Part shown: positions 1-48,254 of the stretch, piece after piece | Layout: the number at the start of each line of letters is the position of its first letter | Position numbering within the stretch: the stretch's first letter is position 1 | Program-made: the position numbers and the translations under genes | NCBI RefSeq assembly: GCF_947623445.1 | Contig: NC_135243.1 | Span: forward strand, 6,078,501 to 6,142,500 | Reading direction: 5' to 3' | Length of the DNA: 64,000 bases | Source of the DNA: Clavelina lepadiformis | Taxonomy: Eukaryota; Chordata; Ascidiacea; Aplousobranchia; Clavelinidae | The notes under the pieces: model-generated | Databases searched by the model: none | Told to the model about the DNA's origin: nothing | The model's input: only the letters and a program-made list of their open reading frames with translations

Positions 1-164
1 TAAAATCTTTCCGAAGCCACAGTTTGTCTCAACTATTAAGCAAACAGCGAAGCGGATGCAATTTCGCGAACCTGTTTATTTAACTTATGGGTGTTTTCAT
101 ATATCTGATATAAAATCGTTTACGACAGAAGGCTTGCCGAAAATGGGTTTAATGGGTAACAGTT
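1..164. repeat. 164-bp segment identical to 23059-23222
   Basis: Every base of 1-164 matches 23059-23222. The match stops exactly where the first 4.1-kb tandem unit begins here and where unrelated sequence continues at 23223. The 23-kb copy lies between the regucalcin gene and its pseudogene, so the left edge of the window is flanked by a recent duplicate of that intergenic DNA, or by an assembly join. No gene is recognised in it. Confidence 0.9.
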
Positions 165-307
165 TATTTGCAAAACTGGTAGGACAGTTATTGTTTTCGT
201 GCTATAATGAAGTGCAGGTAATTTTCTGATAGAATGGAAGCGTTTTAAAGTTAATACAAATGTAAAGCAGTATTATTTTATTAAAATGTAGGCTACACAG
301 ACAAACA

Positions 308-655
308 ATGGAAAACTTTATAAATAGTTTAACAAAGGACAAAGTTCGGCTGGCTGGTAACGCTTCTTGTGTTTGCTGGGTTGGCGCAATATCTGGAAAC
401 GGTTATGGTAGCATCTACTTTGAAGGCCAGCGGCTAGGTACTCATAGACTGGCATATATGTTGTTGGTACAAAAATCAATTTTACCGCTTCCAAGCGAGC
501 TGCACGTAAGCCATGCGTGTCATTGCCGGCTTTGCGTCAATCCAATCCACTTGAGTTTAGAACCAGCTGACGTTAACAACGCAAGAAAACGATGCAATCA
601 CTATAGATATTGCCTTGGCCATGGTGCTTATAAAAACTGCCTTTTCTGGCCTTAA
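308..655 (+). CDS. His-Cys box (I-PpoI-type) homing-endonuclease-like protein, copy 1
   Basis: A 115-residue single-exon protein. Residues 68-96 match the His-Cys box of I-PpoI with the same spacing: putative general-base His69, zinc ligands Cys71, Cys76 and His81, and metal-binding Asn90, 21 residues after the His as in I-PpoI (His98/Asn119). A second cluster (Cys96, Cys102, His105, Cys111) could hold the second structural zinc. The N-terminal part has the Cys-Trp ... Gly-Tyr-Gly ... His-Arg pattern usual before this zinc-binding loop. It is shorter than I-PpoI (163 residues) but keeps the whole catalytic core. Known relatives cut DNA at specific sites and sit in introns or mobile DNA. Here the gene ends 3 bp from the convergent transposase stop. 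The role inside the element (homing, end processing, or cargo) is unknown. Confidence 0.8.
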   Translation: MENFINSLTKDKVRLAGNASCVCWVGAISGNGYGSIYFEGQRLGTHRLAYMLLVQKSILPLPSELHVSHACHCRLCVNPIHLSLEPADVNNARKRCNHYRYCLGHGAYKNCLFWP

Positions 656-658
656 GCA

Positions 659-3069
659 TTAGGTACTGCAATAGTTCTTTGGGTTATTTTTGTAAGTTTC
701 TACAACTGTTCCGCCCAAATCATGCTGTTTAAACCGTCTTCCTTTGCAGAATTTACGTCTTTGACGAGCCACTGGAGTTTTTCTTTTCAGTAGAAGTTGC
801 GTATCTGACGCCTGGAACCCCGCCATCCGTTTTGTTGCTGGGGACCCGTTTTGTAGAGGAATGCCCGAAACATTGCAAGCCATGGCAACTCCGCTACCAA
901 AACCATTGTTTCGGCATAAAACTGCAAGATGCAATCGACCAGGTATGGTGTTTTCGAAATGCCTGCCTTTCGGCAGCGTTTTCGAAAATGTAGCGTTTAC
1001 ACTTTCGCACTTGTTGGTGGTATTACCTAAACGGATTTTACCCAAAATCCGTTGATTGAAGTATTTGGCAACGGTCTGTAGGCAAAGCGTTTTTGATTCG
1101 TCATTTAGTACAAGACCTACTTTGTTATTGTTCCATAACAGTGGTCGCGAATTACCACGGCAAACGAATGAAAACCGCCGACATTGACTGTGATTATTTT
1201 GCAGGCAAGCTAAAACAGCTTCTGTTGCGTTCTTTAGCAGTTTTGTCACAGTTGCAATATCATTCCCGTGTTTTTCGATACAGGCTTTGTACTCTGCAAA
1301 CAACCTTGACTGGAACTCGATGGCAAACTTTTTTCTCGAACGTGCTGCGATCACGCTGTTAGTGGCATCTTTTGGAAAAAGCAAACCCAGGCGAAGCTTT
1401 CGAAGACGCCGACCAAGAGACCGGAAGGTATGAACACAACATGTCTGGCGTTTTACGGGTTCTGCTTGAGATGAATGCATTTGCTTGGAAAAGCCGTCAA
1501 AAAACTTTGAATCGTTGTCAGTTGTGAGAACGTCTACCGCCAAGCCATCGCATTGCAAATCTTCGGCAAGTTTTTTCCCGAGGTCGCGTTCCATGTTGCC
1601 TGCAAACAAAGCAGAAATGATTACGATCGCTACTACCATAAAAATGGCTGCTGTGTCATTTAATGAATCTATATAAATTATATAGAATGCACGTTATGAT
1701 TATTTGTACTGTACCTGGTGGAACGCCGAACGGAAAAGATTCATCTTTATTTGCAGCCTTGCTGGTCCTGCGATTTGTTTCCTTGCTTTTGAAACCGACG
1801 GCAATTATCTTTTTTTGTGGCGTCACATTTTCAACCAGAACACTAACCACCTGTGTCGCAGGCTGAGTTGGTTGATTGAACGCCGCTGCAAGACTCACAT
1901 TGAATCTATAAAAATTGTGCGTAAGTATGACAATTATTCCAAGTTGACGCTAATGCTGTCAAAAATCGTGTTATGTGATAGGCCTGAAGTTAATTGCCTT
2001 ATAACTGGCAACGGAAAATTACCTGTTTGTTTTTAGCCGCATCTATATCTTGCGTATCTTCGGCCATTTAAAAGTGTATGAATGTTTGCTTACCGTGCAT
2101 CGGCTTCAATTGAGATTTTCGCATTTGCAGGAAGTCCGGCTCGAACGTTACGACTTTTCAGGTCCTGGCGCAAGTCTTTCAATTGGCCTTTGTTGTACCT
2201 GGTCACCGAGTCAGAAACTTTTTGGCAATACTTCGACAGATTTCTGGTGGTTGGTGTTGGAATGTCCAGACAGCTAAGGAAAGCTTGCGCTAAACGCTCG
2301 CTTAGGCCGGTAAGTAAAACACCGAGTGCAAATTGAAGATTTGCTTTGCTGGTTGCGTGCCACAGTTTCCGATCCAATTCCACTTTCTCAAAAGTCGAAA
2401 AGGGTTGCGAAACATAGGTGCACTGCAGGCATCGGAGTTTTATAATCGAGCCGCAGCCTCGTAGATCTTCACTGCACACTTTCAGATCTATCTTGCATCT
2501 CGGCGAATGACGCTTATGTTTGCGACAGATTTCCGTCACCAACTCTTCAAAACGAGCGCAGCTGAAAATGCGATTGCCTACAAAGCTGAAAGATCCTTCT
2601 TTATATTGTGCAAGCTCACTTATTAGAGTTGTGCCTTTCGATAGTGACCTTAGACAATGGTGTGCAGCGATATCGCCTGTCTTCGTGTCTGTCAACGATA
2701 ACATTTCCGAATCTATGAGGTACATATGAATAACCGTAAGTAAAAAATTCATTTCAAATTCTCTACATGCAATTGTCTGTTCGTAAGTCCACGCCGCGTC
2801 ATTTCAAAAATCCGGCCCAAAATATACATTTGCTAGCAACGTACTAGTTATGAAAGAAGTTATTTATCTTTTCTCACATTTTTTCCAGTCACCAATCATT
2901 CTAATACGGTCCCCATCAATAGCTGATGCAGGAAATACACAACTTCGCACTAACCTGATGATGGTCGCATCCATTTCAGCGTCGATTCATCACAGCTGAC
3001 ATTTTGTCCGGGGTAATAAGCATGGCCCATTGTAAACTTGTACTGCTTACGTTTCTTCTGAAACGGCAT
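659..3069 (-). CDS. Mutator-superfamily (MULE) transposase, four exons, copy 1
   Basis: Exons 3069-2955, 2712-2094, 1905-1715 and 1668-659 join in phase at GT-AG borders (introns 242, 188 and 46 bp) to give 644 residues with no internal stop. The start was chosen at a basic stretch (MPFQKKRKQYKF) that resembles N-termini of animal Mutator-like transposases. The cysteine-rich N-terminal half has CxxC-type pairs. The catalytic triad looks complete: Asp243 (in IEADARF, spanning the exon 2/3 junction), Asp359 (in TTDND) and Glu530 (in NKCESVN), followed by an FxxTIPGRLH-like segment typical of the family. MULE transposases cut and paste elements with 8-11-bp target duplications. The gene lies on the opposite strand to the endonuclease and shares its 3' side. 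By eye it looks intact. Confidence 0.85.
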
Positions 3070-4419
3070 AATATCCAGCTTAAATGTACGTTTAAAGTTC
3101 AACCAGTAAATGCTGAAATGCGGTATACCTGCTCTTTTTATAGGGTTCCATATCAGCCGGGCAGCCGCTGCAATTTGGTTCCTCCCATTGATAATATGCT
3201 CGGTTTTTATCATATCAACAGGTGTGTTTTGTCTACGTTAATGCTAGACGTCGTCTTCCTACTATTTTCCTGCGAGCGTTCCTAAGATAATCTGGGCAAC
3301 TGACATCGCATAAAATCGCCTTTTTGCGAGATCCTACTGGCGTATTGTTGAATTATAATCTTGTTCCAGGCTTCCTGCGTTTCGCCATGTCGTACACAAC
3401 GCATAGATTTCCAATGGGACTAAATTACTTGTGGCTGGTCCAGAATTTTAACCTTAATTGATGTCTTTTAACCAATTAAGGATGTCTGTGCTCGAATCGC
3501 CACCTAGCGGTTAGTGTAAATTTGCTCTATTTGATAAACGTTTGAGGTCTCTTGGAGGAAGGTGACCAATCTTTCGCGCACGTTGGACTTTCAGTTGGTA
3601 TGTTCTAATGCAAGCGTCTTTAAACTTAGACAGTCGGATTAAAAAATTCCCTATAAGGGCTCAATACCCTATATAAAGACAATTTTGAGCCGGCAACACA
3701 GTGATTATTACGTGTTCGTACTCAATGCGTCATATTAAAAAAAGTAAGAAATTTTCCGGTCCAACGCGCATGTGACGTCGATGTGAACTAGTTTTGTTGT
3801 TGTTTTGGCGACAGCTGGTTCCAGGTTTAGGCTAAATTGTACATTTTTTGAGGGTTTGATTTTTCGGTTTTTAGGAGTATTTGTGCTAAATTTTTAAGTT
3901 CAAAACTTGCTGTAAAGTTTAGGTAGCTGTTATAGAAAACTGAGTACATGGATTTTGTCCAAATTAAGACTGCAGACAGGCCTGACCTAGATGACATTGC
4001 AAGCCAAAATTCAGTGTAGGTTTATGATGTGAATTTGCGACAGTAGCGTCTTGATTTAATGTACTTTGCATTGAAAAGCCTATCTCGTTGAAATGGGTCA
4101 TGACCCCTTAAGCCAAAAACTTATTATGAATGTAAAACTCAGTTTTTAGGCTTACTTAACTTGCTAGCTTGTCTTTGGGCTAGGCTATTAACTAAAATTT
4201 GATTGCACTCTTTCCAGAAATACTTTTGGCTGGCTTTTTTGTATTTAACGGCGTTTAATTCTTTGTTTATTTATTTTATTTGCAAAACTGGTAGGACAGT
4301 TATTGTTTTCGTGCTATAATGAAGTGCAGGTAATTTTCTGATAGAATGGAAGCGTTTTAAAGTTAATACAAATGTAAAGCAGTATTATTTTATTAAAATG
4401 TAGGCTACACAGACAAACA

Positions 4420-4767
4420 ATGGAAAACTTTATAAATAGTTTAACAAAGGACAAAGTTCGGCTGGCTGGTAACGCTTCTTGTGTTTGCTGGGTTGGCGCA
4501 ATATCTGGAAACGGTTATGGTAGCATCTACTTTGAAGGCCAGCGGCTAGGTACTCATAGACTGGCATATATGTTGTTGGTACAAAAATCAATTTTACCGC
4601 TTCCAAGCGAGCTGCACGTAAGCCATGCGTGTCATTGCCGGCTTTGCGTCAATCCAATCCACTTGAGTTTAGAACCAGCTGACGTTAACAACGCAAGAAA
4701 ACGATGCAATCACTATAGATATTGCCTTGGCCATGGTGCTTATAAAAACTGCCTTTTCTGGCCTTAA
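4420..4767 (+). CDS. His-Cys box endonuclease-like protein, copy 2
   Basis: Encodes the same 115 residues as the gene at 308-655, with all putative catalytic and zinc residues. The DNA upstream here is the right part of copy 1, which includes a TATA-like CTATATAAAG at 3669-3678 on this strand, about 740 bp away; whether it is used is unknown. Confidence 0.8.
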   Translation: MENFINSLTKDKVRLAGNASCVCWVGAISGNGYGSIYFEGQRLGTHRLAYMLLVQKSILPLPSELHVSHACHCRLCVNPIHLSLEPADVNNARKRCNHYRYCLGHGAYKNCLFWP

Positions 4768-4770
4768 GCA

Positions 4771-7181
4771 TTAGGTACTGCAATAGTTCTTTGGGTTATT
4801 TTTGTAAGTTTCTACAACTGTTCCGCCCAAATCATGCTGTTTAAACCGTCTTCCTTTGCAGAATTTACGTCTTTGACGAGCCACTGGAGTTTTTCTTTTC
4901 AGTAGAAGTTGCGTATCTGACGCCTGGAACCCCGCCATCCGTTTTGTTGCTGGGGACCCGTTTTGTAGAGGAATGCCCGAAACATTGCAAGCCATGGCAA
5001 CTCCGCTACCAAAACCATTGTTTCGGCATAAAACTGCAAGATGCAATCGACCAGGTATGGTGTTTTCGAAATGCCTGCCTTTCGGCAGCGTTTTCGAAAA
5101 TGTAGCGTTTACACTTTCGCACTTGTTGGTGGTATTACCTAAACGGATTTTACCCAAAATCCGTTGATTGAAGTATTTGGCAACGGTCTGTAGGCAAAGC
5201 GTTTTTGATTCGTCATTTAGTACAAGACCTACTTTGTTATTGTTCCATAACAGTGGTCGCGAATTACCACGGCAAACGAATGAAAACCGCCGACATTGAC
5301 TGTGATTATTTTGCAGGCAAGCTAAAACAGCTTCTGTTGCGTTCTTTAGCAGTTTTGTCACAGTTGCAATATCATTCCCGTGTTTTTCGATACAGGCTTT
5401 GTACTCTGCAAACAACCTTGACTGGAACTCGATGGCAAACTTTTTTCTCGAACGTGCTGCGATCACGCTGTTAGTGGCATCTTTTGGAAAAAGCAAACCC
5501 AGGCGAAGCTTTCGAAGACGCCGACCAAGAGACCGGAAGGTATGAACACAACATGTCTGGCGTTTTACGGGTTCTGCTTGAGATGAATGCATTTGCTTGG
5601 AAAAGCCGTCAAAAAACTTTGAATCGTTGTCAGTTGTGAGAACGTCTACCGCCAAGCCATCGCATTGCAAATCTTCGGCAAGTTTTTTCCCGAGGTCGCG
5701 TTCCATGTTGCCTGCAAACAAAGCAGAAATGATTACGATCGCTACTACCATAAAAATGGCTGCTGTGTCATTTAATGAATCTATATAAATTATATAGAAT
5801 GCACGTTATGATTATTTGTACTGTACCTGGTGGAACGCCGAACGGAAAAGATTCATCTTTATTTGCAGCCTTGCTGGTCCTGCGATTTGTTTCCTTGCTT
5901 TTGAAACCGACGGCAATTATCTTTTTTTGTGGCGTCACATTTTCAACCAGAACACTAACCACCTGTGTCGCAGGCTGAGTTGGTTGATTGAACGCCGCTG
6001 CAAGACTCACATTGAATCTATAAAAATTGTGCGTAAGTATGACAATTATTCCAAGTTGACGCTAATGCTGTCAAAAATCGTGTTATGTGATAGGCCTGAA
6101 GTTAATTGCCTTATAACTGGCAACGGAAAATTACCTGTTTGTTTTTAGCCGCATCTATATCTTGCGTATCTTCGGCCATTTAAAAGTGTATGAATGTTTG
6201 CTTACCGTGCATCGGCTTCAATTGAGATTTTCGCATTTGCAGGAAGTCCGGCTCGAACGTTACGACTTTTCAGGTCCTGGCGCAAGTCTTTCAATTGGCC
6301 TTTGTTGTACCTGGTCACCGAGTCAGAAACTTTTTGGCAATACTTCGACAGATTTCTGGTGGTTGGTGTTGGAATGTCCAGACAGCTAAGGAAAGCTTGC
6401 GCTAAACGCTCGCTTAGGCCGGTAAGTAAAACACCGAGTGCAAATTGAAGATTTGCTTTGCTGGTTGCGTGCCACAGTTTCCGATCCAATTCCACTTTCT
6501 CAAAAGTCGAAAAGGGTTGCGAAACATAGGTGCACTGCAGGCATCGGAGTTTTATAATCGAGCCGCAGCCTCGTAGATCTTCACTGCACACTTTCAGATC
6601 TATCTTGCATCTCGGCGAATGACGCTTATGTTTGCGACAGATTTCCGTCACCAACTCTTCAAAACGAGCGCAGCTGAAAATGCGATTGCCTACAAAGCTG
6701 AAAGATCCTTCTTTATATTGTGCAAGCTCACTTATTAGAGTTGTGCCTTTCGATAGTGACCTTAGACAATGGTGTGCAGCGATATCGCCTGTCTTCGTGT
6801 CTGTCAACGATAACATTTCCGAATCTATGAGGTACATATGAATAACCGTAAGTAAAAAATTCATTTCAAATTCTCTACATGCAATTGTCTGTTCGTAAGT
6901 CCACGCCGCGTCATTTCAAAAATCCGGCCCAAAATATACATTTGCTAGCAACGTACTAGTTATGAAAGAAGTTATTTATCTTTTCTCACATTTTTTCCAG
7001 TCACCAATCATTCTAATACGGTCCCCATCAATAGCTGATGCAGGAAATACACAACTTCGCACTAACCTGATGATGGTCGCATCCATTTCAGCGTCGATTC
7101 ATCACAGCTGACATTTTGTCCGGGGTAATAAGCATGGCCCATTGTAAACTTGTACTGCTTACGTTTCTTCTGAAACGGCAT
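4771..7181 (-). CDS. MULE transposase, four exons, copy 2
   Basis: Exons 7181-7067, 6824-6206, 6017-5827 and 5780-4771, by exact translation of the copy-1 model (+4,112). The encoded segments are identical to those of copy 1, so the same 644-residue D-D-E protein is predicted. Confidence 0.85.
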
Positions 7182-8531
7182 AATATCCAGCTTAAATGTA
7201 CGTTTAAAGTTCAACCAGTAAATGCTGAAATGCGGTATACCTGCTCTTTTTATAGGGTTCCATATCAGCCGGGCAGCCGCTGCAATTTGGTTCCTCCCAT
7301 TGATAATATGCTCGGTTTTTATCATATCAACAGGTGTGTTTTGTCTACGTTAATGCTAGACGTCGTCTTCCTACTATTTTCCTGCGAGCGTTCCTAAGAT
7401 AATCTGGGCAACTGACATCGCATAAAATCGCCTTTTTGCGAGATCCTACTGGCGTATTGTTGAATTATAATCTTGTTCCAGGCTTCCTGCGTTTCGCCAT
7501 GTCGTACACAACGCATAGATTTCCAATGGGACTAAATTACTTGTGGCTGGTCCAGAATTTTAACCTTAATTGATGTCTTTTAACCAATTAAGGATGTCTG
7601 TGCTCGAATCGCCACCTAGCGGTTAGTGTAAATTTGCTCTATTTGATAAACGTTTGAGGTCTCTTGGAGGAAGGTGACCAATCTTTCGCGCACGTTGGAC
7701 TTTCAGTTGGTATGTTCTAATGCAAGCGTCTTTAAACTTAGACAGTCGGATTAAAAAATTCCCTATAAGGGCTCAATACCCTATATAAAGACAATTTTGA
7801 GCCGGCAACACAGTGATTATTACGTGTTCGTACTCAATGCGTCATATTAAAAAAAGTAAGAAATTTTCCGGTCCAACGCGCATGTGACGTCGATGTGAAC
7901 TAGTTTTGTTGTTGTTTTGGCGACAGCTGGTTCCAGGTTTAGGCTAAATTGTACATTTTTTGAGGGTTTGATTTTTCGGTTTTTAGGAGTATTTGTGCTA
8001 AATTTTTAAGTTCAAAACTTGCTGTAAAGTTTAGGTAGCTGTTATAGAAAACTGAGTACATGGATTTTGTCCAAATTAAGACTGCAGACAGGCCTGACCT
8101 AGATGACATTGCAAGCCAAAATTCAGTGTAGGTTTATGATGTGAATTTGCGACAGTAGCGTCTTGATTTAATGTACTTTGCATTGAAAAGCCTATCTCGT
8201 TGAAATGGGTCATGACCCCTTAAGCCAAAAACTTATTATGAATGTAAAACTCAGTTTTTAGGCTTACTTAACTTGCTAGCTTGTCTTTGGGCTAGGCTAT
8301 TAACTAAAATTTGATTGCACTCTTTCCAGAAATACTTTTGGCTGGCTTTTTTGTATTTAACGGCGTTTAATTCTTTGTTTATTTATTTTATTTGCAAAAC
8401 TGGTAGGACAGTTATTGTTTTCGTGCTATAATGAAGTGCAGGTAATTTTCTGATAGAATGGAAGCGTTTTAAAGTTAATACAAATGTAAAGCAGTATTAT
8501 TTTATTAAAATGTAGGCTACACAGACAAACA

Positions 8532-8879
8532 ATGGAAAACTTTATAAATAGTTTAACAAAGGACAAAGTTCGGCTGGCTGGTAACGCTTCTTGTGTTTGC
8601 TGGGTTGGCGCAATATCTGGAAACGGTTATGGTAGCATCTACTTTGAAGGCCAGCGGCTAGGTACTCATAGACTGGCATATATGTTGTTGGTACAAAAAT
8701 CAATTTTACCGCTTCCAAGCGAGCTGCACGTAAGCCATGCGTGTCATTGCCGGCTTTGCGTCAATCCAATCCACTTGAGTTTAGAACCAGCTGACGTTAA
8801 CAACGCAAGAAAACGATGCAATCACTATAGATATTGCCTTGGCCATGGTGCTTATAAAAACTGCCTTTTCTGGCCTTAA
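8532..8879 (+). CDS. His-Cys box endonuclease-like protein, copy 3
   Basis: Same 115-residue product as at 308-655, with His69 and Asn90 present. Confidence 0.8.
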   Translation: MENFINSLTKDKVRLAGNASCVCWVGAISGNGYGSIYFEGQRLGTHRLAYMLLVQKSILPLPSELHVSHACHCRLCVNPIHLSLEPADVNNARKRCNHYRYCLGHGAYKNCLFWP

Positions 8880-8882
8880 GCA

Positions 8883-11293
8883 TTAGGTACTGCAATAGTT
8901 CTTTGGGTTATTTTTGTAAGTTTCTACAACTGTTCCGCCCAAATCATGCTGTTTAAACCGTCTTCCTTTGCAGAATTTACGTCTTTGACGAGCCACTGGA
9001 GTTTTTCTTTTCAGTAGAAGTTGCGTATCTGACGCCTGGAACCCCGCCATCCGTTTTGTTGCTGGGGACCCGTTTTGTAGAGGAATGCCCGAAACATTGC
9101 AAGCCATGGCAACTCCGCTACCAAAACCATTGTTTCGGCATAAAACTGCAAGATGCAATCGACCAGGTATGGTGTTTTCGAAATGCCTGCCTTTCGGCAG
9201 CGTTTTCGAAAATGTAGCGTTTACACTTTCGCACTTGTTGGTGGTATTACCTAAACGGATTTTACCCAAAATCCGTTGATTGAAGTATTTGGCAACGGTC
9301 TGTAGGCAAAGCGTTTTTGATTCGTCATTTAGTACAAGACCTACTTTGTTATTGTTCCATAACAGTGGTCGCGAATTACCACGGCAAACGAATGAAAACC
9401 GCCGACATTGACTGTGATTATTTTGCAGGCAAGCTAAAACAGCTTCTGTTGCGTTCTTTAGCAGTTTTGTCACAGTTGCAATATCATTCCCGTGTTTTTC
9501 GATACAGGCTTTGTACTCTGCAAACAACCTTGACTGGAACTCGATGGCAAACTTTTTTCTCGAACGTGCTGCGATCACGCTGTTAGTGGCATCTTTTGGA
9601 AAAAGCAAACCCAGGCGAAGCTTTCGAAGACGCCGACCAAGAGACCGGAAGGTATGAACACAACATGTCTGGCGTTTTACGGGTTCTGCTTGAGATGAAT
9701 GCATTTGCTTGGAAAAGCCGTCAAAAAACTTTGAATCGTTGTCAGTTGTGAGAACGTCTACCGCCAAGCCATCGCATTGCAAATCTTCGGCAAGTTTTTT
9801 CCCGAGGTCGCGTTCCATGTTGCCTGCAAACAAAGCAGAAATGATTACGATCGCTACTACCATAAAAATGGCTGCTGTGTCATTTAATGAATCTATATAA
9901 ATTATATAGAATGCACGTTATGATTATTTGTACTGTACCTGGTGGAACGCCGAACGGAAAAGATTCATCTTTATTTGCAGCCTTGCTGGTCCTGCGATTT
10001 GTTTCCTTGCTTTTGAAACCGACGGCAATTATCTTTTTTTGTGGCGTCACATTTTCAACCAGAACACTAACCACCTGTGTCGCAGGCTGAGTTGGTTGAT
10101 TGAACGCCGCTGCAAGACTCACATTGAATCTATAAAAATTGTGCGTAAGTATGACAATTATTCCAAGTTGACGCTAATGCTGTCAAAAATCGTGTTATGT
10201 GATAGGCCTGAAGTTAATTGCCTTATAACTGGCAACGGAAAATTACCTGTTTGTTTTTAGCCGCATCTATATCTTGCGTATCTTCGGCCATTTAAAAGTG
10301 TATGAATGTTTGCTTACCGTGCATCGGCTTCAATTGAGATTTTCGCATTTGCAGGAAGTCCGGCTCGAACGTTACGACTTTTCAGGTCCTGGCGCAAGTC
10401 TTTCAATTGGCCTTTGTTGTACCTGGTCACCGAGTCAGAAACTTTTTGGCAATACTTCGACAGATTTCTGGTGGTTGGTGTTGGAATGTCCAGACAGCTA
10501 AGGAAAGCTTGCGCTAAACGCTCGCTTAGGCCGGTAAGTAAAACACCGAGTGCAAATTGAAGATTTGCTTTGCTGGTTGCGTGCCACAGTTTCCGATCCA
10601 ATTCCACTTTCTCAAAAGTCGAAAAGGGTTGCGAAACATAGGTGCACTGCAGGCATCGGAGTTTTATAATCGAGCCGCAGCCTCGTAGATCTTCACTGCA
10701 CACTTTCAGATCTATCTTGCATCTCGGCGAATGACGCTTATGTTTGCGACAGATTTCCGTCACCAACTCTTCAAAACGAGCGCAGCTGAAAATGCGATTG
10801 CCTACAAAGCTGAAAGATCCTTCTTTATATTGTGCAAGCTCACTTATTAGAGTTGTGCCTTTCGATAGTGACCTTAGACAATGGTGTGCAGCGATATCGC
10901 CTGTCTTCGTGTCTGTCAACGATAACATTTCCGAATCTATGAGGTACATATGAATAACCGTAAGTAAAAAATTCATTTCAAATTCTCTACATGCAATTGT
11001 CTGTTCGTAAGTCCACGCCGCGTCATTTCAAAAATCCGGCCCAAAATATACATTTGCTAGCAACGTACTAGTTATGAGAGAAGTTATTTATCTTTTCTCA
11101 CATTTTTTCCAGTCACCAATCATTCTAATACGGTCCCCATCAATAGCTGATGCAGGAAATACACAACTTCGCACTAACCTGATGATGGTCGCATCCATTT
11201 CAGCGTCGATTCATCACAGCTGACATTTTGTCCGGGGTAATAAGCATGGCCCATTGTAAACTTGTACTGCTTACGTTTCTTCTGAAACGGCAT
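8883..11293 (-). CDS. MULE transposase, four exons, copy 3
   Basis: Exons 11293-11179, 10936-10318, 10129-9939 and 9892-8883 (+8,224 from copy 1). The same protein is predicted. The single base change at 11078 is in intron 1 and away from the splice sites. Confidence 0.85.
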
Positions 11294-12333
11294 AATATCC
11301 AGCTTAAATGTACGTTTAAAGTTCAACCAGTAAATGCTGAAATGCGGTATACCTGCTCTTTTTATAGGGTTCCATATCAGCCGGGCAGCCGCTGCAATTT
11401 GGTTCCTCCCATTGATAATATGCTCGGTTTTTATCATATCAACAGGTGTGTTTTGTCTACGTTAATGCTAGACGTCGTCTTCCTACTATTTTCCTGCGAG
11501 CGTTCCTAAGATAATCTGGGCAACTGACATCGCATAAAATCGCCTTTTTGCGAGATCCTACTGGCGTATTGTTGAATTATAATCTTGTTCCAGGCTTCCT
11601 GCGTTTCGCCATGTCGTACACAACGCATAGATTTCCAATGGGACTAAATTACTTGTGGCTGGTCCAGAATTTTAACCTTAATTGATGTCTTTTAACCAAT
11701 TAAGGATGTCTGTGCTCGAATCGCCACCTAGCGGTTAGTGTAAATTTGCTCTATTTGATAAACGTTTGAGGTCTCTTGGAGGAAGGTGACCAATCTTTCG
11801 CGCACGTTGGACTTTCAGTTGGTATGTTCTAATGCAAGCGTCTTTAAACTTAGACAGTCGGATTAAAAAATTCCCTATAAGGGCTCAATACCCTATATAA
11901 AGACAATTTTGAGCCGGCAACACAGTGATTATTACGTGTTCGTACTCAATGCGTCATATTAAAAAAAGTAAGAAATTTTCCGGTCCAACGCGCATGTGAC
12001 GTCGATGTGAACTAGTTTTGTTGTTGTTTTGGCGACAGCTGGTTCCAGGTTTAGGCTAAATTGTACATTTTTTGAGGGTTTGATTTTTCGGTTTTTAGGA
12101 GTATTTGTGCTAAATTTTTAAGTTCAAAACTTGCTGTAAAGTTTAGGTAGCTGTTATAGAAAACTGAGTACATGGATTTTGTCCAAATTAAGACTGCAGA
12201 CAGGCCTGACCTAGATGACATTGCAAGCCAAAATTCAGTGTAGGTTTATGATGTGAATTTGCGACAGTAGCGTCTTGATTTAATGTACTTTGCATTGAAA
12301 AGCCTATCTCGTTGAAATGGGTCATGACCCCTT

Positions 12334-13491
12334 TAACAAAAAGAAAGCGTTGATTCTGACGACTGTACTTCCTGGTGCCAGTTTACCAGCCCGTCTGTTT
12401 GCTTAACTCATTTGCTCTTTAGGAACCTAAATGCTCCTACATGGCGAGGAATGCAATTTTGCTCAGTGCCAAGTCGCGATGTGCATGAATCCATGATTCC
12501 ATTTCTTTTTTTGAAAAGCGTTCAACCACAAATCGAATGAGACAAAAATCTTTACGGACCATAGTTTTTTACGCTTTTTTCCGTCGTTTTTCTTTGCAAA
12601 CAAACTTAGCATAGACAAATGACAAGCAAAAACTAACCGACAAAGTTCCATCGCAAACGAAACAGCTAAAAGGCTGCAAATACAGTAATAGGCCTGGTTA
12701 ATTAAATATGTATCTGCAACTATTGACAAGAGCACGTCAAGATGACAAATGCCGCTTTAATGACATACTTTATGGCAATACTTCCACAAAACTGAAATGC
12801 CTAACCTGACAACCAGAGGTGGCAAAACTGGAGTTTCATTGGCTGGAAATCACAAAGGTTGTTGTGTGGTTAAGACTTCCATTAAACAGCTTTAGTGGTT
12901 TATTATGTAATAAAACAACAACATAATAGGTTGGGTTACAGATCGATCGGACCCGCCTTCGCTCGGTATCATACTGTTCGATGATACACAGGGTATTGAT
13001 TTACATGGTGAATTGACACCAAGTATATGTTGCATCTTAGAGGTGATTTCTCCGACCAACTACACGTATTCGCATATCCAATCATAAGCTAACCTTCAAA
13101 CGGGAGGTTGCTGCAGAAAACACGCTACTATCATTTCTTTCTCAAACAATTCTTCATCTCTTTTGCGAGCATTATCATATGTAGCCCCTGCTCAAATTAA
13201 ATGCTTGATGCCAAGGCCGGGGTAGATGGGGTCCTTTGCCGATTTTAGATGCTGTGAATTAATGTAAAAATAATAATAATAACGTAAAATAAGTATTAAC
13301 TCTTTCTAAACCAGCTCCATCAAAGCTCTGCTTTGTTGTTCATTTTAACCAAGGCATTGCCTACGCCCTACGAGAACAAATTGAGAAATAACACTGTTAT
13401 TTGCGCGAAATAAAAGCAAAATTGTTATTTTTGTTTTTGTGCTAAGAAGCGCGAGGCCCAACGCAGTCGCATCGCTCGCATTGGCCTAAGG
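12334..13491. repeat. 1.15-kb interspersed repeat, copy A
   Basis: The whole stretch is repeated at 15432-16610 with mostly scattered base changes and small indels. It starts TAACAAAAAGAAAG and ends in a GC-rich block with an imperfect hairpin (GGCCCAACGC ... GCATTGGCC). I see no long reading frame, no terminal inverted repeats and no target duplication, so the class is unknown. Its left side abuts the truncated MULE copy and its right side is cut by a hAT end. Confidence 0.8.
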
Positions 13492-14470
13492 CAGGGGTGT
13501 CAAACTCAATCGCACCAGGGGCCAAATCTCAAAACTTATTTAACGCCGCGGGCCGTAAGGATGAAACTTGATTGAACGATTCGTAACTTGACGTGATTTG
13601 ATTGAACGTTTCGCGACACCAGTACATGAATTGGAACAGGCATCGAAATAACACCAAGTTTTTGATGTTTAAAGCTCGGTGTATTATTCTTCTTCGAATA
13701 CGAGTCGCACAAATACGGACGAAAAACAGGAAAAATACGTCGCACTCGATAATATATCCTACCAAAAAGTAGAAAGAAAGGTCACCTACCACGAAGTAGG
13801 CTTATTATTGAAAACAAGGCTTTGGGGAAAACCCGTGTATTTCACGAAAATTGCGCCGCGCAATCAGTTAAGAACAACGTGAATTGAAAATTTTTTTGTT
13901 ACGTTTGTGCTGCATTGTACGATGTTTAAAGAAGCCGCTCTCAAATATGAGCACAAAGTAGACCGATAAAAATAAAATGAATATGTAAAAAATTAATGTA
14001 CGCGGCATACGGTATGCTACAACCATAAGCACATACACAGAAATGCAGTAATAAGATTCTGTCAAACACGACCATACTACAGGTAGCCTGTATAAAAAAA
14101 TGTAAATTAAACCGTGCATTTGAAAGTTAAAAAGTTAGCAAATTGAAGCACTCAACTGTCTTCACTTCAGTGGTGCCACTTTATCAGAGCTGGATGTTTG
14201 ACATCTTTTCATGGAAACAAGTTTGTCGATGTTTGGGGTAAGACTTTGTGTTGCGGAAATTCTTAAAATGGACTGTAGGTGTTCATCAGTAAGACGACTT
14301 CTGTGTGATGTTTTGTTAATCTTCATCACAGAAAACAACTGTTCACATATATATGTGCTACCAAACATACACAAGGTTCGAGCGGCATGTAGAGCCCTAA
14401 GGCCAATGCTGCTTGATGCTTTAAAAGCTATACAAGTATGCAGGTTGCACGCAACTACAGGTACAACCAT
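13492..14470 (-). mobile_element. hAT transposon remnant with C-terminal transposase fragment
   Basis: The segment opens with CAGGGGTGTCAAACTC, a terminal repeat widely seen in animal hAT elements. The minus-strand frame 14470-14162 encodes 102 residues that include FGSTYICEQLFSVMKINK and RSRLTDEHLQSILRI, the dimerisation region of GTF2IRD2/SCAND3-like hAT transposases. Only the C-terminal end and the flanking terminal repeat are present. The N-terminal part and the opposite terminal repeat were not found, so the copy is a broken fragment. Confidence 0.75.
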
Positions 14471-15431: not shown

Positions 15432-16610
15432 TAACAAAAAGAAAGTGTTGTTTCTGACGACTGTACTTCCTGGTGCCAGTTTACCAGCCCGTCTGTTTGC
15501 TTACCTCATTTGCTCTTTAGGAACTTAAATGCTCCTACATGGCGAGGAATGCAATATCGCTCAGTGCCAAGTCGCGATGTGCATGAATCCATGATTCCAT
15601 TTCTTTTTTTGAAAAGCGTTCAACCACAAATCGAATGTAACCAAAATCTTCACGGACCATAGTGTTTTACACTTTTTTCCGTCGTTTTTCTTTGCAAACA
15701 AACTTAGCATAGACAAATGACAAGCAAAAACTAACTGACAAAGTTCCATCGCGAACGAAACAGCTAAAAGCTGCTAAAAGGCTGCAAATACAGTAATAGG
15801 CCTGGTTAATTAAATATCTATCTGCAACTATTGACAAGAGCACGTCAAGATGACAAATGCCGCTTTAATGACATACTTTAGGGCAACACTTCCACAAAAC
15901 TGAAATGCCTAACCTGACAACCAGAGGTGGCAAAACTGGAGTTTCATTGGCTGGAAATCACAAAGGTTGTTGTGTGGTTAAGACTTCCATTAAACAGCTT
16001 TAGTGGTTTATTATGTAATAAAACAACAACATAATAGGTTGGGTTACAGATCGATCGGACCCGCCTTGACTCGGTTTTTATACTGTTCGATGATACACAG
16101 GGTATTGATTTACATGGTGAATTGACACCAAGTATATGTTGCATCTTAGAGGTGATTTCTCCGACCAACTAGACGCATTCGCATATATCCAATCATAAGC
16201 AAACTTTCAAACAGGAGGTTGCTGCAGAAAACACGCTACTATGTTGTCAAACACTTCTTCATCTTTTTCGCGAGCATGATCATATATAGCCCTTGCTCAA
16301 ATTAAATGCTTGATGCCAAGGCCGGGGTAGGTGGGGTCCTTTGCCGATTTTAGATACTGTGACTTAATGTAAAAATAATAATAATAACGTAAAATAAGTA
16401 TTAACTCTTTCTAAACCAGCTCCATCAAAGCTTTGCTTTGTAGTATATTTTAACCAAGGCATTGCCTACGAGAACAAATTGAGAAATAACAATGTTATTT
16501 GCGCAAAATTTATAAAATTTATAAAAGCAAAATTGTTATTTTTGTTTTGGTGCTAAGAAGCGCGAGGCCCAACGTAGTCGCATCGCTAGCATTGGCCTAA
16601 GGCCAATGCG
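15432..16610. repeat. 1.15-kb interspersed repeat, copy B
   Basis: Near-complete second copy of 12334-13491. Its right end runs into a near-palindrome (GCATTGGCCT / AAGGCCAATGC, about 16589-16609), which is followed at once by copy C in the same direction. Confidence 0.8.
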
Positions 16611-16613
16611 GTT

Positions 16614-16936
16614 CTAACAAAAAGAAAGTGTTGATTCTGACGACTGTACTTCCTGGTGCCAGTTTACCAGCCCGTCTGTTTGCTTACCTCATTTGCTCTT
16701 TAGGAACCTAAATGCTCCTACATGGCGAGGAATGCAATTTCGCTCAGTGCCAAGTCGCGATGTGCTGAATCCATGATTCCATTTCTTTTTTTGATAAGCG
16801 TTCAACCACATATCGAATGAGACAAAAATGTTTACGGACCATAGTTTTGTACGCTTTTTTCCGTCGTTATTCTTTGCAAACAAACTTAGCAAAGACAAAT
16901 GACAAGCAAAAACTAACGGACAAAGTTCCATCGGGA
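16614..16936. repeat. 1.15-kb interspersed repeat, copy C (left 320 bp only)
   Basis: Same left end as copies A and B (TAACAAAAAGAAAG), directly after copy B. Similarity stops near 16936, so about three quarters of the repeat is missing. Confidence 0.75.
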
Positions 16937-19186
16937 ACGAAAATGAGAACAGCTGATCTTGCCCATAGTCGTCCTATGGCAAGCACTGAGATCGATCCAC
17001 GCTTGTAGAAATGAGGCGTTTCTTGTTGTTTCTGTTCCAAATGAAGCCTGTCAAACATCACAGCAAGTTGACGCGCATTGAAGTTGAGTGATAGAAAATA
17101 ATGAAATTTAAGCAAACTTGTCTCTTCTCTCCTCTAGCTAGGCTGGACTATTTGTGTTACGTTCTAACAACAGAGCGAGTCTCTCCGAGGTAATAATTTA
17201 CAACTTTTAAAGCTCCCCAACTAGACTGTTGATTGCGTTACTTCAATAAACCACAGGAGTTGTAAAAATTCCCGCCATAGTAAATTAATGAAACCATGTT
17301 TAAACCTCACCGCAATAAATTGATACGTGACGCCCATAAAATGATTTATGTTTCTATGTGGGTGACACTCCAAGGATCATAAAAATCTTAGAGGTTGTAG
17401 AAAGGCTTTGGCCATACTTATCGGCACAGATTCTTCTTGGTAAATGAGCGTAATCATATAGCGAGGTAGATTTGATGAGTTTGCCATCACCGTACTTCCA
17501 ATACACATTTTATGAAAATTATGGTTCAAATCATTTTATTAACAAATAAATCCCTATCAAGCAGTGAAAGACGGAGATGTCAGTAATATGATTAATCACC
17601 CACTTCGTATAACGTGATTTTCAGCTTCAGTTTTTCAAAGTTCTTTCTTAAATGTTCATTTATGTGACGTAACTAACTTTTTATTAGGCCACGTAACGCA
17701 AGGTGGTATTTTTTGCCGAATAACTTTGCTGCTTTTCCCCTCAGCAGTTCCATTCGTACAGTATCCAACCAGCCTTCGAGCGGCGCCATTCAAACATGAT
17801 AACTTATAATATAAGTATACGACGGCCAAGTTGATTGTCCTGGTTTACACTGGTTTATAGTGTACCATAAATATTTATAATATTTCAATCTGACTCTTAA
17901 GAATTATAAGAAGGATGCGAATACTGTCTAGAGTTATCCTAGACTTCAGTCGAATAGGTTACAGCATTATTAAACACTGAAATTCTGATTAATTTCGCTT
18001 TTAATGCATTTTATTATTACTTCGGTCAACACGAGAAAATACAACAATATTATTGTCCAAGGAAAAGGTTTTAAAAACTCAATTGTCGACAAGCGCAACT
18101 CCTTATATCTCACGAACAATTAAAGAGAACGACCAATTCGTTCTCGATCGTACATATTCGTTCCAATTTTCCAACTCTCAGTGTGTCTAAAAACATTGCA
18201 TGCAACGGTACATGTATACACTGACGGAGGAAATTAAAGAAACAAAACAATGACAATATACAATAATAGTGCGTTAAATGACAGATACATATTTATAACA
18301 ACACAACTTGGAAGACAGTGGAAACAGCGTCTTCCAGACCTGCCAGTCAGGGCAAAGATACGCTAGTTTGTTTTATACGCTTAGCCTACAGTATATAAGC
18401 CATACAGAGTTGTTGCTCGTGACAACAATGAAACTGCTGGTTGCGGTTACGTCCTGACTGCTGAGCATAAAAAGGTAAACGTTATTCATCAACTGCTGCT
18501 TGATGACCGTAAACCAGTATTTGCCTGGTTTTGGAAGGTAATGCTGGCTCGTAAGTTATTAACACCGAGAAAGGTATTTGGGTGACTATTTGTTTAGCCG
18601 CTAGCGCTTTAGGCGAGCGTAAGTACATAAGCCACGGTAAGACCGGTTTTCAGTTGATCAGTGATTACCAGCAATGAAGATCTTTCAAGTGTGGTTAGAC
18701 GCAAACTATTGCAGCATCGCTGAGGAGATATAAACCAATTCAATTGCTAGCATGTTTATGGCATTACTATAATTGACTTTCCATAAGATTATATTTCCAT
18801 GGTAAAGATTTAACGAGCAGCAATATAAATCGTGCAACTCATTCAACTTAGAGTTATTGCAGCATGAAGCTATTGATACCTGCAGCTGCATATTAAGCAG
18901 TGTATGCAATTTAAATGTACTTTGAAATGAATGGTCTCTTAAGATAGCAATAGTCGAGTTTTTGAGGTAGATAATATTTTCGAGTTTCCAAATTCAAGCA
19001 GACTAAAATTTCAAAAGTTATATTCTGTAATTCAAGCAATTGCTATCGAGTATACCGCTAAACAGCTAACTTGAACAGTAACTGAATTTCAAAGATAGAA
19101 CCATGTCATTTTATCGCAAATTTGGACCCATAACTCAGTTACAATACATAACTATAGTTGAGTTTTTTTTAAAAGATAGGTTGCCC
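16937..19186. other. Intergenic region upstream of regucalcin
   Basis: AT-rich, with no open frame resembling a known protein on either strand. Presumably holds the regucalcin promoter, but no clear element could be assigned. Confidence 0.5.
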
Positions 19187-22804: not shown

Positions 22805-23272
22805 GTGAACCTGCCTGTAAGCGTTGCAATTGAACTCGAAAGTTGGAAAATTGATTTTATATTAAAAATGTTTTATACCAATCTTTGGTTTTGTAAATCG
22901 TTTTGTACGTTTTGTCGTCACTATTTGGTTCGAATGGTAAATACTCCAACAAGATTACATATCACATCGCGAAACGGATTTCCCGGGATGCTGGTTTTGT
23001 TTTGCTCTATAATATCAGAAACGTCATGTTGGCGTTTTCCACCTTTAGACCCAAAACCTAAAATCTTTCCGAAGCCACAGTTTGTCTCAACTATTAAGCA
23101 AACAGCGAAGCGGATGCAATTTCGCGAACCTGTTTATTTAACTTATGGGTGTTTTCATATATCTGATATAAAATCGTTTACGACAGAAGGCTTGCCGAAA
23201 ATGGGTTTAATGGGTAACAGTTACATAAACAGGAATTTGTTAAGAATGGCACCGGAAGTTGATTTCTGTTGA
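22805..23272 (+). other. Unrecognised 155-codon open frame over the duplicated segment
   Basis: An open frame with a non-ATG first codon that covers the 164-bp segment shared with 1-164. The predicted sequence resembles no family I know and has no clear signal peptide or domain. It lies between the regucalcin gene and its partial copy. It may be chance, or the fossil of an unknown element; coding status is doubtful. Confidence 0.2.
23059..23222. repeat. 164-bp segment identical to 1-164
   Basis: Exact copy of the first 164 bases of the window. Here the MULE unit is absent and the sequence continues as unique DNA from 23223. Confidence 0.9.
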
Positions 23273-44919: not shown

Positions 44920-46949
44920 CCACGTTAGTGCTACCAATACATAGAAAAAAACTGCAAGGATTCTGGCCACCCACGGTGATTGCAATTCTAAAATATTTAC
45001 TCAGCAAATGAGACCGCCATACTCTTATAACAATGTAAGAAACACCAGCATGCACGTCGTGTTTTTGGCATTGTAGGTTACTATTTTAGTCATCCAATTG
45101 CTGTATTAATTTCGCAGGAAACCTTTAACTGACCTTACGTTATCGTCTGAAAAGTCAAATAACAATTTTTCTGTCTTAAACTGCTGGCATATGATTTAAT
45201 TATAATTATTGATGTAATTGAATTTTTTTGCCGCTCAACAACAAACAACGGTCAACTTCGGTAAATAGGCTTACGTGGAAATGACATTTTTTCCTTCGTT
45301 TTACTGCTGCAATATTTCGTACAAAAATTTCATACGAGTTTTTGTCAAATCAAGGATGATTGTTAGGTTTGTAACATATCGCAGAGGTTTGATACGCGTA
45401 GTACGCTGCCGAACTGACTACAGTATAGCCGTGTGTGGTGAACTCCGATCATTAGAAGTGCGTCTCCATCCCAACTCACAGGCGGCTTCAAATCCATGCA
45501 AGCACAAGATGTATCCTATGCTGCTACCTGGAGTGTAGCCAGTTTAATCATTAATATGTTCGATCTCTGCTGACTGTGCTAAGTACACAGTCATTCCAAT
45601 TACGTCATAATTACAACGTGAACACAAGCATCTAAATTATAAAATGAACAAGTAGGCCTAACAATCTGGTGGCTGTGTACGCCACAGACTAAATCTAAAA
45701 TTTGTATTTATGTCACAGACATTCCGAATTCTCAATACCTTAAATTGACATCCGTCTCAACTATCAAACAATAATAATAAAAAACAGCGATTATGCAAAT
45801 CGTTCAACAGAAACGGTAAGCGGTAGACTACTAAATCTAAAGCGATAACTAATGAAAAAGATTGCATGATTGCACAAGTTTGAAGCTGGTTACCAAAAGG
45901 CGACTGGCAGTTAGATGACGTATGGTAACGGTTCGAACTCTCAAAAGTAGCCCATTAGAGATTTTATCTTTTATAAAACACAAAACTTTAATGAAAAGAG
46001 TTAAATAAATATACCGTTAGGATGCGCTATATCTTGACCATAAAAATCAAAACTAACTATAAATAAGCAATTGTTACGCCACAATTGGGACACACAATAA
46101 TTGGTCAAAAATCGATCAATCTTCTGGCCTTGCTTCTGTAGAGGTGACATGAAAGTGGCCATTGAACAGTTTTTTTCGTTACGTTGTTCTATTTTTTGCA
46201 CCGTCTCAGACGGCAATGTTTTTGCTTTGAGTAAGACGAGCCAATTGTCCTAATACGATTACGAGCTATGGGTTCTCGAGTATAATACTTGTAGTTAGTA
46301 TTTTGTAAGCCGTGGCGAACAAAAAAAGTTAGTTCTGCCTGGAAAGACCACTGTCCTTATGACTGTGTCGAGTCAAGTACTACAAGCTTTTAATACAAAA
46401 ACTGATGACCAACAAAATATCCGGCGCAACAAATCGCCAGACATCTAAGAAGCAGAGTGTTGAACAACAACCGAAGCTAAACTTTTTTTTTTTTTGGAAA
46501 ACGAACTGGAAACAGGAACGAATACTTATAATTTTATGCATCCAAACGAAACCTGAACGATTAAAAATCAAGAACCAATATCCGAACCAAATAATAACAT
46601 TATTTGACAAAAATTGCAACAACTAAGCAAAATTGTATCAGAATACTATGCTAAACTAAAATTTTGTGAAATTTATTTTAAATAAATCTGTTTTTACCAT
46701 TTTTTTTGTTGCGGCGGAAGGACGCGTTATGTTTTCTATGATACATGCATCACTTGTGTTTAAAACCACGTGGCATGACGACATGCACGTTTCCTTACCA
46801 CATTCACTGGCTAAGTTTTCCAGGTTGCAGGGTTGGATGGGTAGGAAGGTATTGCGTTTGCTTGTGACAAATCGCTTTGTTAAAAATATTAATATCGGAA
46901 TATTGTCAGTAAATAATAGGTTTGTGCAACTTGACCGCTAAGAAATATT
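44920..46949. other. Intergenic region upstream of eRF1
   Basis: No gene recognised. An AG at about 46942 (CCGCTAAG) just before the eRF1 ATG could be a cis- or trans-splice acceptor for a 5' untranslated exon; this is inference. Confidence 0.4.
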
Positions 46950-48254
46950 ATGGCAGACGCTGAAACTGCAGCCGATAGAAATGTGGAAATTTGGAAGATC
47001 AAAAAACTGATAAAAAGTTTGGAGGCCGCACGTGGGAATGGCACAAGCATGATATCGCTAATTATACCTCCAAAAGATCAAGTTTCTCGCGTTGCAAAAA
47101 TGTTAGCTGACGAATACGGAACAGCCTCAAACATCAAAAGTAGAGTTAATAGATTGTCTGTTCTTGGTGCTATCACGTCTGTCCAACAAAGACTAAAGCT
47201 ATACAACAAAGTCCCCACAAATGGATTGGTTGTTTATTGTGGAACGATCGTCACCGATGAAGGAAAGGAAAAGAAAGTTAACATTGATTTTGAGCCGTTT
47301 AAACCGATCAACACTTCACTCTACTTGTGTGATAATAAATTCCACACAGAAGCCTTAACCGCGTTACTCTCAGATGATAACAAATTTGGATTTATTATTA
47401 TGGACGGAAATGGTGCTCTGTTTGGAACGCTACAAGGCAATACCAGAGAGGTGTTGCACAAATTTACTGTAGATCTACCCAAAAAACATGGACGAGGAGG
47501 GCAGTCTGCTCTTCGTTTTGCTCGTTTGAGAATGGAAAAACGACACAATTATGTTCGAAAAGTTGCCGAAACAGCAGTCACCCTCTTTATCACAAATGAC
47601 CGACCGAATGTGACAGGTCTTATTCTTGCAGGCTCTGCTGATTTTAAGACCGAGTTGAGCCAATCAGACATGTTCGATCAAAGACTACAAACCAAGATTA
47701 TAAAATTAGTTGATGTTTCCTATGGTGGGGAGAACGGTTTCAACCAAGCCATTGAATTGTCGGCAGAGGTTTTATCAAATGTCAAGTTCATTCAAGAAAA
47801 AAAATTGATTGGCAAATACTTCGACGAGATTTCCCAAGATACTGGGAAATTTTGTTTCGGCGTCGATGATACCCTTAAGGCATTAGAAATGGGAGCCGTT
47901 GAAATTCTTATTGTTTGGGAGAATCTGGACATTATGAGATATGTTCTTAAGAATCACAGCACTGACGAAGAAAAAATCCTTTATTTACGACCAGATCAAG
48001 AAAAAGATAAAACCCATTTTACTGATAAAGAAACTCAAGTTGAATTGGAAATGACAGACAGCTGTCCGCTGTTAGAATGGTTTGCCAACAATTACAAAAA
48101 GTATGGAGCCACGTTGGAAATCGTCACTGATCGATCTCAAGAAGGCTCACAGTTTGTTAAAGGTTTCGGTGGTATTGGGGGAATGCTTCGTTACAGAATT
48201 GACTTTCAAAGTTTGGAATTTAATGAAGATGATGAGTATTATGACGATTACTAA
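46950..48254 (+). CDS. ETF1: Eukaryotic peptide chain release factor eRF1, single exon
   Basis: A 434-residue frame (human eRF1 has 437) with all key motifs: TASNIKS (58-64) and YLCDNKF (125-131) for stop-codon reading in domain N, and GGQ at 183-185 for peptidyl-tRNA hydrolysis in domain M. The acidic C-terminus ([10 protein letters not shown]) resembles that of metazoan eRF1. Domain C binds the GTPase eRF3. The protein acts on cytosolic ribosomes. The whole coding region is uninterrupted, whereas the human gene is split into many exons. The frame shows no damage, so it is either the main gene after intron loss or an intact retrocopy. TELO2 begins 575 bp downstream on the same strand. Confidence 0.95.

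Follow-up and report, generated by a model that had tools for sequence, protein, structure and literature searches.

KolobokP elements (Kojima & Bao 2022, Mob DNA 13:24; PMC9587614) are composite-like Kolobok transposons with long terminal direct repeats (LTDRs) of ~450 or ~660 bp. According to that article, the LTDRs have their own short terminal inverted repeats (TIRs), with 5'-RR and YY-3' ends, and most families encode a DDE transposase together with an I-PpoI-like nuclease on the opposite strand. The LTDRs and the His-Me finger nuclease are presented there as traits that set KolobokP apart from other Kolobok lineages, and solo LTDRs, multimers and direct junctions between two internal regions (INT-INT junctions) are all described. 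Target-site duplications are 3–5 bp long and without strong target preference, and eight autonomous families from oyster measure 4,022–4,748 bp. The 228 families, autonomous and non-autonomous, come from seven animal phyla, and the chordates in Table 1 of the article are lancelets (Branchiostoma) only.

Here we analyse a 64,000-nucleotide stretch of the genome of the tunicate Clavelina lepadiformis (NC_135243.1, positions 6,078,501 to 6,142,500; "the window"), near the start of which lies a tandem array whose unit encodes a transposase and a His-Cys box endonuclease. Judged by its architecture, its ends and the published description, the unit appears to be a divergent DNA transposon of the KolobokP type in which both genes are open, arranged as an (LTDR-INT)n multimer whose left LTDR is missing; we give this reading a probability of roughly 0.88. 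The pairing of the two genes, which a preliminary description of this DNA had supposed to be undescribed, has been in print since 2022, both proteins being present in most KolobokP families and in seven animal phyla (PMC9587614). Neither a literature search of limited coverage nor Table 1 of that article yielded a KolobokP element from a tunicate, and the Clavelina elements would extend the type to this group, where both genes are open in two families.

A tandem array and its relatives in the genome

Positions 163–12333 of the window form a direct tandem array with a unit of 4,112 bp and ~2.96 copies, and the self-alignment of 163–8231 with 4275–12342 shows 99.95% identity. Within each unit, a four-exon transposase gene and the endonuclease gene converge, their stops (653–655 and 659–661 in the first unit) leaving a gap of 3 bp, as the preliminary description had it. 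The left end of the array is damaged, the left LTDR and ~165 bp of INT being gone. The features of the array are:

163–3654, forward strand: INT 1 (internal region), without the left LTDR and without approximately the first 165 bp
308–655, forward strand: His-Cys box (His-Me finger) endonuclease gene, ATG at 308, last codon 650–652, stop 653–655, 115 residues
659–3069, reverse strand: Kolobok-type DDE transposase gene, exons 3069–2955, 2712–2094, 1905–1715 and 1599–659 (including the stop), 621 residues
3653–3656, forward strand: INT-to-LTDR edge, the four bases preceding GGG being ATAA and not TTAA, likewise in the other two units
3655–4109, forward strand: LTDR 1, 455 bp, AAGGG...CCCTT
4110–7766, forward strand: INT 2, complete, 3657 bp
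4420–4767, forward strand: endonuclease gene, copy in unit 2
4771–7181, reverse strand: transposase gene, copy in unit 2
7767–8221, forward strand: LTDR 2, 455 bp
8222–11878, forward strand: INT 3, complete, 3657 bp
8532–8879, forward strand: endonuclease gene, copy in unit 3
8883–11293, reverse strand: transposase gene, copy in unit 3
11879–12333, forward strand: LTDR 3, 455 bp, closing the array on its right side, with flank CCCC-TTTA-AC

A second family (family B, the window's own being family A) is found at C1:2947607-2955707 as LTDR-INT-INT-LTDR, with identical LTDRs and both genes open, the transposase being read exon by exon and unspliced. Its nuclease is 63% identical to that of the window, and its genes converge in the same layout as in family A. 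An open nuclease closer to the window's (82% identical) stands next to a truncated transposase in the array formed by loci L004–L006. Among the 17 loci checked for both proteins, which amount to 13 separate places when L004–L006 are counted as one array and L007, L008 and L012 as another, both genes are present at 16 loci and 12 places, many of them as decayed pieces with stops; the sole exception is L014, where the nuclease is missing. The linkage, together with the open state of both genes in family B, bears out the earlier proposal of one mobile element carrying both; family B also refutes the alternative named there, a chance neighbour in a single amplified locus.

Genome-wide copy totals are lower bounds taken from the best-scoring candidates. 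An array at C5:14559143-14721324 (L069–L072, C5:14555001-14726000) has at least 84 nuclease copies and is a decayed, satellite-like derivative of KolobokP type whose units are identical across 10 kb of L069. Its nuclease genes are spaced by 2110 bp (48 cases), 1657 bp (31), 2563 bp (1) and three other distances, which by arithmetic correspond to INTs separated by a single LTDR, by none or by two; the same range of zero, one or two LTDRs between INTs emerges from the junctions read in parts of this array. Similar mixtures of spacings occur on C6 (at least 21 copies), C2 (at least 19, without the double) and C4 (at least 7). Solo LTDRs are also present, for example at L085 and L089.

The two encoded proteins

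Spliced, the transposase is 621 residues long with zero internal stops, and it covers the Pfam profile PF20700 from end to end (1–357 of 357; E=7.1e-43). The exon borders were read from GT/AG sites rather than from RNA, and are backed by the same break points in family B (tblastn). By eye, the family A protein has the C/DxxH signature as CCVH at 362, followed by a zinc finger between the second D and the E (HSQC...C at 445) and by CESVN at 506; the equivalents in family B are CCVH, HSDC...C and VESVN. The ratio of nonsynonymous to synonymous substitutions (dN/dS) is 0.22 for exon 2, at a dS of 1.75 that is near saturation, and exon 4 is saturated, with differences at the three codon positions of 0.32, 0.21 and 0.61.

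The endonuclease matches PF05551 with 35.9 bits (cut-off 27; E=1e-8) and HNH_3 under the curated cut-off, and in profile comparison it matches I-PpoI (1EVW, E=5.7e-4; 1A73, E=5e-3). The I-PpoI alignment spans residues 36–96, and I-PpoI residues are numbered as in PMC9587614. Every element of the I-PpoI-group active site is present, together with the zinc-binding Cys and His residues: Ser68-His69 corresponds to Ser97-His98 of I-PpoI, His81 to His110, Glu85 to Glu114 and Asn90 to Asn119. The catalytic His and the Asn 21 residues later, on which the preliminary description had relied, are thus His69 and Asn90. Its further statement that the zinc ligands keep I-PpoI spacing holds for the first site (C71-C76-H81); the second (C96, C102, H105 and C111) has what we take to be a different spacing. 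The N-terminal and last zinc ligands were placed by eye. A single-sequence AlphaFold2 model has a mean predicted local distance difference test score (pLDDT) of 37.6, too low for a fold comparison.

Catalytic and zinc-binding residues are invariant across four aligned open nuclease copies, two of which (L007 and L008) are near identical. The nuclease dN/dS is 0.30 for the window and L004 (Fisher p=3e-4), 0.19 for the window and L007 (p=4e-11) and 0.16 for L004 and L007 (p=2e-12); for the contrast pair, L007 and a stop-bearing array copy, it is 0.58 (p=0.18). These codon comparisons indicate that the nuclease is under purifying selection, and the pattern implies that it is kept as a protein. 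Among viral contigs, one locus has a 36% identical HNH protein amid frames that read like phage genes, and is uninformative.

Termini, target sites and inner edges

The LTDRs are 455 bp long in family A and 453 bp in family B, each with its own short imperfect inverted termini and GG..CC ends. Those of the window start with AAGGGCTCAATACCC and end with GGGTCATGACCCCTT; the termini are AAGGG(C/G)TCA...TGACCCCTT in family A and GGGGCTGTAG...CTACAGCCCC in family B. In related arrays elsewhere in the genome, an LTDR forms the outer boundary on both sides. Five such arrays belong to family A:

C8:2299225-2314583: seven LTDRs, both outer LTDRs present, TTAA/TTAA
C8:2354629-2362538: four LTDRs, both outer LTDRs present, TTAA/TTAA
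C2:17848046-17878308: 13 LTDRs, both outer LTDRs present, TTAA/TTAA
C4:23956010-23978829: 10 LTDRs, both outer LTDRs present, TTAA/TTAA
C1:3987915-3998309: five LTDRs, both outer LTDRs present, TTAA/TTAA

Across the family A arrays counted, the outer four bases are TTAA in 5/5 cases on the left and 5/6 on the right, the exception being the window (TTTA). With family B, which has TTAA at both outer sides in the C1 element and in the C5 array, there are seven cases with TTAA on both sides; at 64% A+T, the chance that an insertion has TT at its left side together with AA at its right is ~1%. When the flanks of these seven insertions were joined, two had an empty site, each holding a single TTAA: that of C8:2299225-2314583 matches over 300/300 bases at 99% identity, and that of C8:2354629-2362538 over 300/300 bases at 100%. 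These matches indicate recent insertion. The empty-site copy of each C8 array sits beside the other C8 array, and the two segments may be a duplication or two haplotypes. For the other five joined flanks, no empty site was found among the window and the collected loci, which was the extent of the comparison.

The inner edges differ from the outer ones. Read in LTDR orientation, the INT-to-LTDR edge is ATAA in 37/37 cases and the LTDR-to-INT edge is TTAA in 36/36, in a count that covers the 42 full-length LTDRs of six family A arrays and leaves aside the shortened LTDRs (L005, L006), the left end of the L004 array and L014–L016. Since the arrays are homogenised, these counts amount to few independent events. 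In family B the corresponding edges are TGAA and TTAA, so that the INT-to-LTDR edge departs from TTAA at different bases in the two families. In the parts of the C5 array that were read, two adjoining LTDRs meet in a perfect 24-bp palindrome with a single TTAA at its centre, and the INT-INT junction has lost TGAA and kept one TTAA, in agreement with the 3–4 bp loss reported in PMC9587614. A related element with two inverted LTDRs, found at L015 (C4:21355831-21359691) and L016 (C5:13451655-13455515), has TTAA at both outer ends; the two loci have 30-bp flanks in common.

The LTDRs of families A and B are about 56–60% identical. Among the best-conserved stretches is a 22-bp block, TCCGGTCCANYGCGCATGTGAC, which occurs 706 times in the genome at up to two mismatches, versus 0 times for the reversed pattern. 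Among 14 occurrences that were retrieved, 10 fall within LTDRs or pieces of them, and the remaining four (L082, L083, L084 and L088) have ~50 bp of LTDR only, inside another repeat, as expected because the search used the block itself. In a 455-bp pair at ~60% identity such conservation is, by rough estimate, not clearly above chance; as a nuclease site or promoter, the block is a weak lead. Two further conserved blocks, TTCCGGTCCA.TGCGCATGTGAC (partly palindromic) and TGTACTTTGCATTG, at alignment columns ~100–123 and 406–419, are possible candidates for protein-binding or promoter sites, of marginal significance. At L087 (C1:3621420-3621950), two copies of TGACCTTAATC flank a 13-bp insert within the LTDR; L081 (C1:1673155-1673685) departs from the LTDR at the same position, the first bases of the insert being identical, a pattern suggestive of a different transposon and the footprint it left.

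The surroundings of the window array were also inspected. Two copies, 100% identical, of a segment at least 1,357 bp long end at 164, where the array starts, and at 23222; their parts inside the window are 1–164 and 23059–23222, and the segment continues upstream of it. The repetition may stem from segmental duplication or from the joining of a haplotype during assembly, and may account for the missing left end of the array. At the right end starts a host repeat with three copies (12334–13492, 15432–16603 and 16615–16942; 93–96%), the other copies reading GTTC-TAACAAAAAG where the array junction reads CCCC-TTTAACAAAAAG. Farther along, at 46935–48254 on the forward strand, lies an unbroken, intronless frame of 439 codons from stop to stop, presumably eukaryotic translation release factor 1 (eRF1), which could represent either a gene with a single exon or a retrocopy.

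Competing readings, possible mechanism and known systems

Several observations weigh against assignment to KolobokP. The TTAA target agrees with the published 3–5 bp in length, but its preference does not. No target duplication can be demonstrated from the window array itself, since its left LTDR and the start of its INT are gone, and its right flank, TTTA, offers no TTAA duplication either; the left end of the L004 array is TTGA. Both arrays with empty sites consist of decayed units, with stops in the transposase, and are not the window's own family copy. Lastly, a CCHC finger after the first Asp is near-invariant in KolobokP, although it is common to other Kolobok lineages and lies outside the definition on which the name rests (PMC9587614); the transposases of families A and B have zero Cys or His residues from the first catalytic Asp (placed by eye) up to the GNMER stretch, beyond which family A has one Cys, within LQCDG.

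The target and the finger would suit a separate Kolobok lineage that gained its LTDRs and His-Cys nuclease independently, or a branch that predates the CCHC finger of KolobokP, in that neither family has Cys or His where the finger is described and insertion at TTAA is as in classical Kolobok. We consider this unlikely: KolobokP is matched in the length of the LTDRs, in the order and orientation of the genes, in the type of nuclease and in the multimers, and the loss of one finger is simpler than re-assembly of the entire design. A Mutator-like element (MULE) with a captured homing endonuclease gene is less probable still. MULEs make target duplications of 8–10 bp and have long terminal inverted repeats, as against the TTAA duplications of the Clavelina insertions, the single TTAA in two empty sites and the short TIRs within 455-bp direct repeats. 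The LTDRs, the short TIRs with GG..CC and the TTAA duplications thus point to Kolobok rather than Mutator, and on the ends and the empty sites we rejected the MULE. What survives of the MULE name in the preliminary description is the label of the top Pfam match, PF20700 being called "Mutator-like transposase"; it is the only MULE-type Pfam model matched at E up to 10, a range in which HMMER filters remove most matches above ~0.1, and the C/DxxH signature is common to Kolobok and MuDR transposases (PMC9587614). That a transposase and an unrelated endonuclease pseudogene were amplified jointly by chance as one satellite locus, as the many decayed copies in tandem arrays and the missing left terminus of the window array might suggest, is barely credible and was dismissed, given two divergent families in which both genes are open and converge in the same way, linkage at 12/13 places, purifying selection on the nuclease and the published pairing in seven phyla (PMC9587614).

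On the KolobokP-type reading, the transposase would recognise the GG..CC termini and insert LTDR-bounded units at TTAA, and would also mobilise decayed relatives in trans. The nuclease, if it cleaves as I-PpoI does, would leave 3' overhangs, and it could make double-strand breaks in or at LTDRs; repair of such breaks from a misaligned LTDR would add or remove LTDR-INT units, building multimers and offsetting LTDR loss. Inducing the unequal exchange that builds multimers is probably the role of the putative nuclease. In the published model, speculative according to its authors, the nuclease likewise cuts LTDRs and induces unequal crossover (PMC9587614); the repair-based copying suggested for this locus in the preliminary description is close to it. 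I-PpoI leaves TTAA overhangs (PMC9587614), and by this resemblance the TTAA-centred LTDR-LTDR junction would be a natural candidate substrate. The two genes face inward, and each LTDR lies just upstream of one of them, at a distance of ~310 bp from the start of the nuclease or ~585 bp from that of the transposase; from this position it may double as a promoter.

A bolder proposal concerns what holds the composite together. At the INT-to-LTDR edge, families A and B have lost TTAA through different changes, while TTAA persists at the other inner edge and at almost all outer ones; a TTAA-requiring transposase might therefore prefer the outermost ends, so that multimers move whole, and the nuclease, if it leaves TTAA overhangs as I-PpoI does, might cut the TTAA-centred LTDR-LTDR junctions (CTACAGCCCC-TTAA-GGGGCTGTAG) and so feed multimer growth. 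If true, this would explain how the composite is maintained, a question that PMC9587614 raises. We regard it as doubtful: LTDRs with a TGAA edge have nevertheless been lost in the C5 array, and multimers may have grown after insertion.

Empty sites 99–100% identical to the joined flanks suggest that this well-assembled animal genome may contain a system that was active recently, and arrays in which the number of LTDRs per INT is 0, 1 or 2 offer many junctions for studying LTDR excision and nuclease-induced unequal exchange. The TTAA target and the missing zinc finger bear on the origin of KolobokP from ordinary Kolobok.

Compared with known systems, the nuclease resembles I-PpoI of Physarum in the 21-residue distance between the His and the metal-binding Asn, the Ser-His pair, the equivalents of His110 and Glu114 and the spacing of the first zinc site; it differs in its length (115 residues, against 163 in the crystal chain) and in being encoded by a transposon and not an rDNA intron. 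From Mutator and MuDR, the Clavelina element is set apart by its 4-bp TTAA and direct long repeats, with the exception of the inverted LTDRs at L015 and L016. With classical Kolobok it shares TTAA duplication, GG..CC (RR..YY) ends, C/DxxH and an H..C..C finger ahead of the catalytic Glu, and it departs from it in its LTDRs and His-Me nuclease. Relative to KolobokP, the tunicate host, the TTAA preference, the absence of the CCHC finger downstream of the first D, the unequal inner edges (ATAA or TGAA versus TTAA) and the decayed arrays with nuclease copies, which reach at least 84 units, are distinctive. Shared with KolobokP are the LTDRs of 455 and 453 bp with short TIRs, which fall in the ~450-bp class, the gene pair on opposite strands of INT, a comparable length (the Clavelina repeat of one LTDR and INT is 4,112 bp), the C/DxxH signature with a zinc finger between the second D and the E, and the multimers, solo LTDRs and INT-INT junctions.

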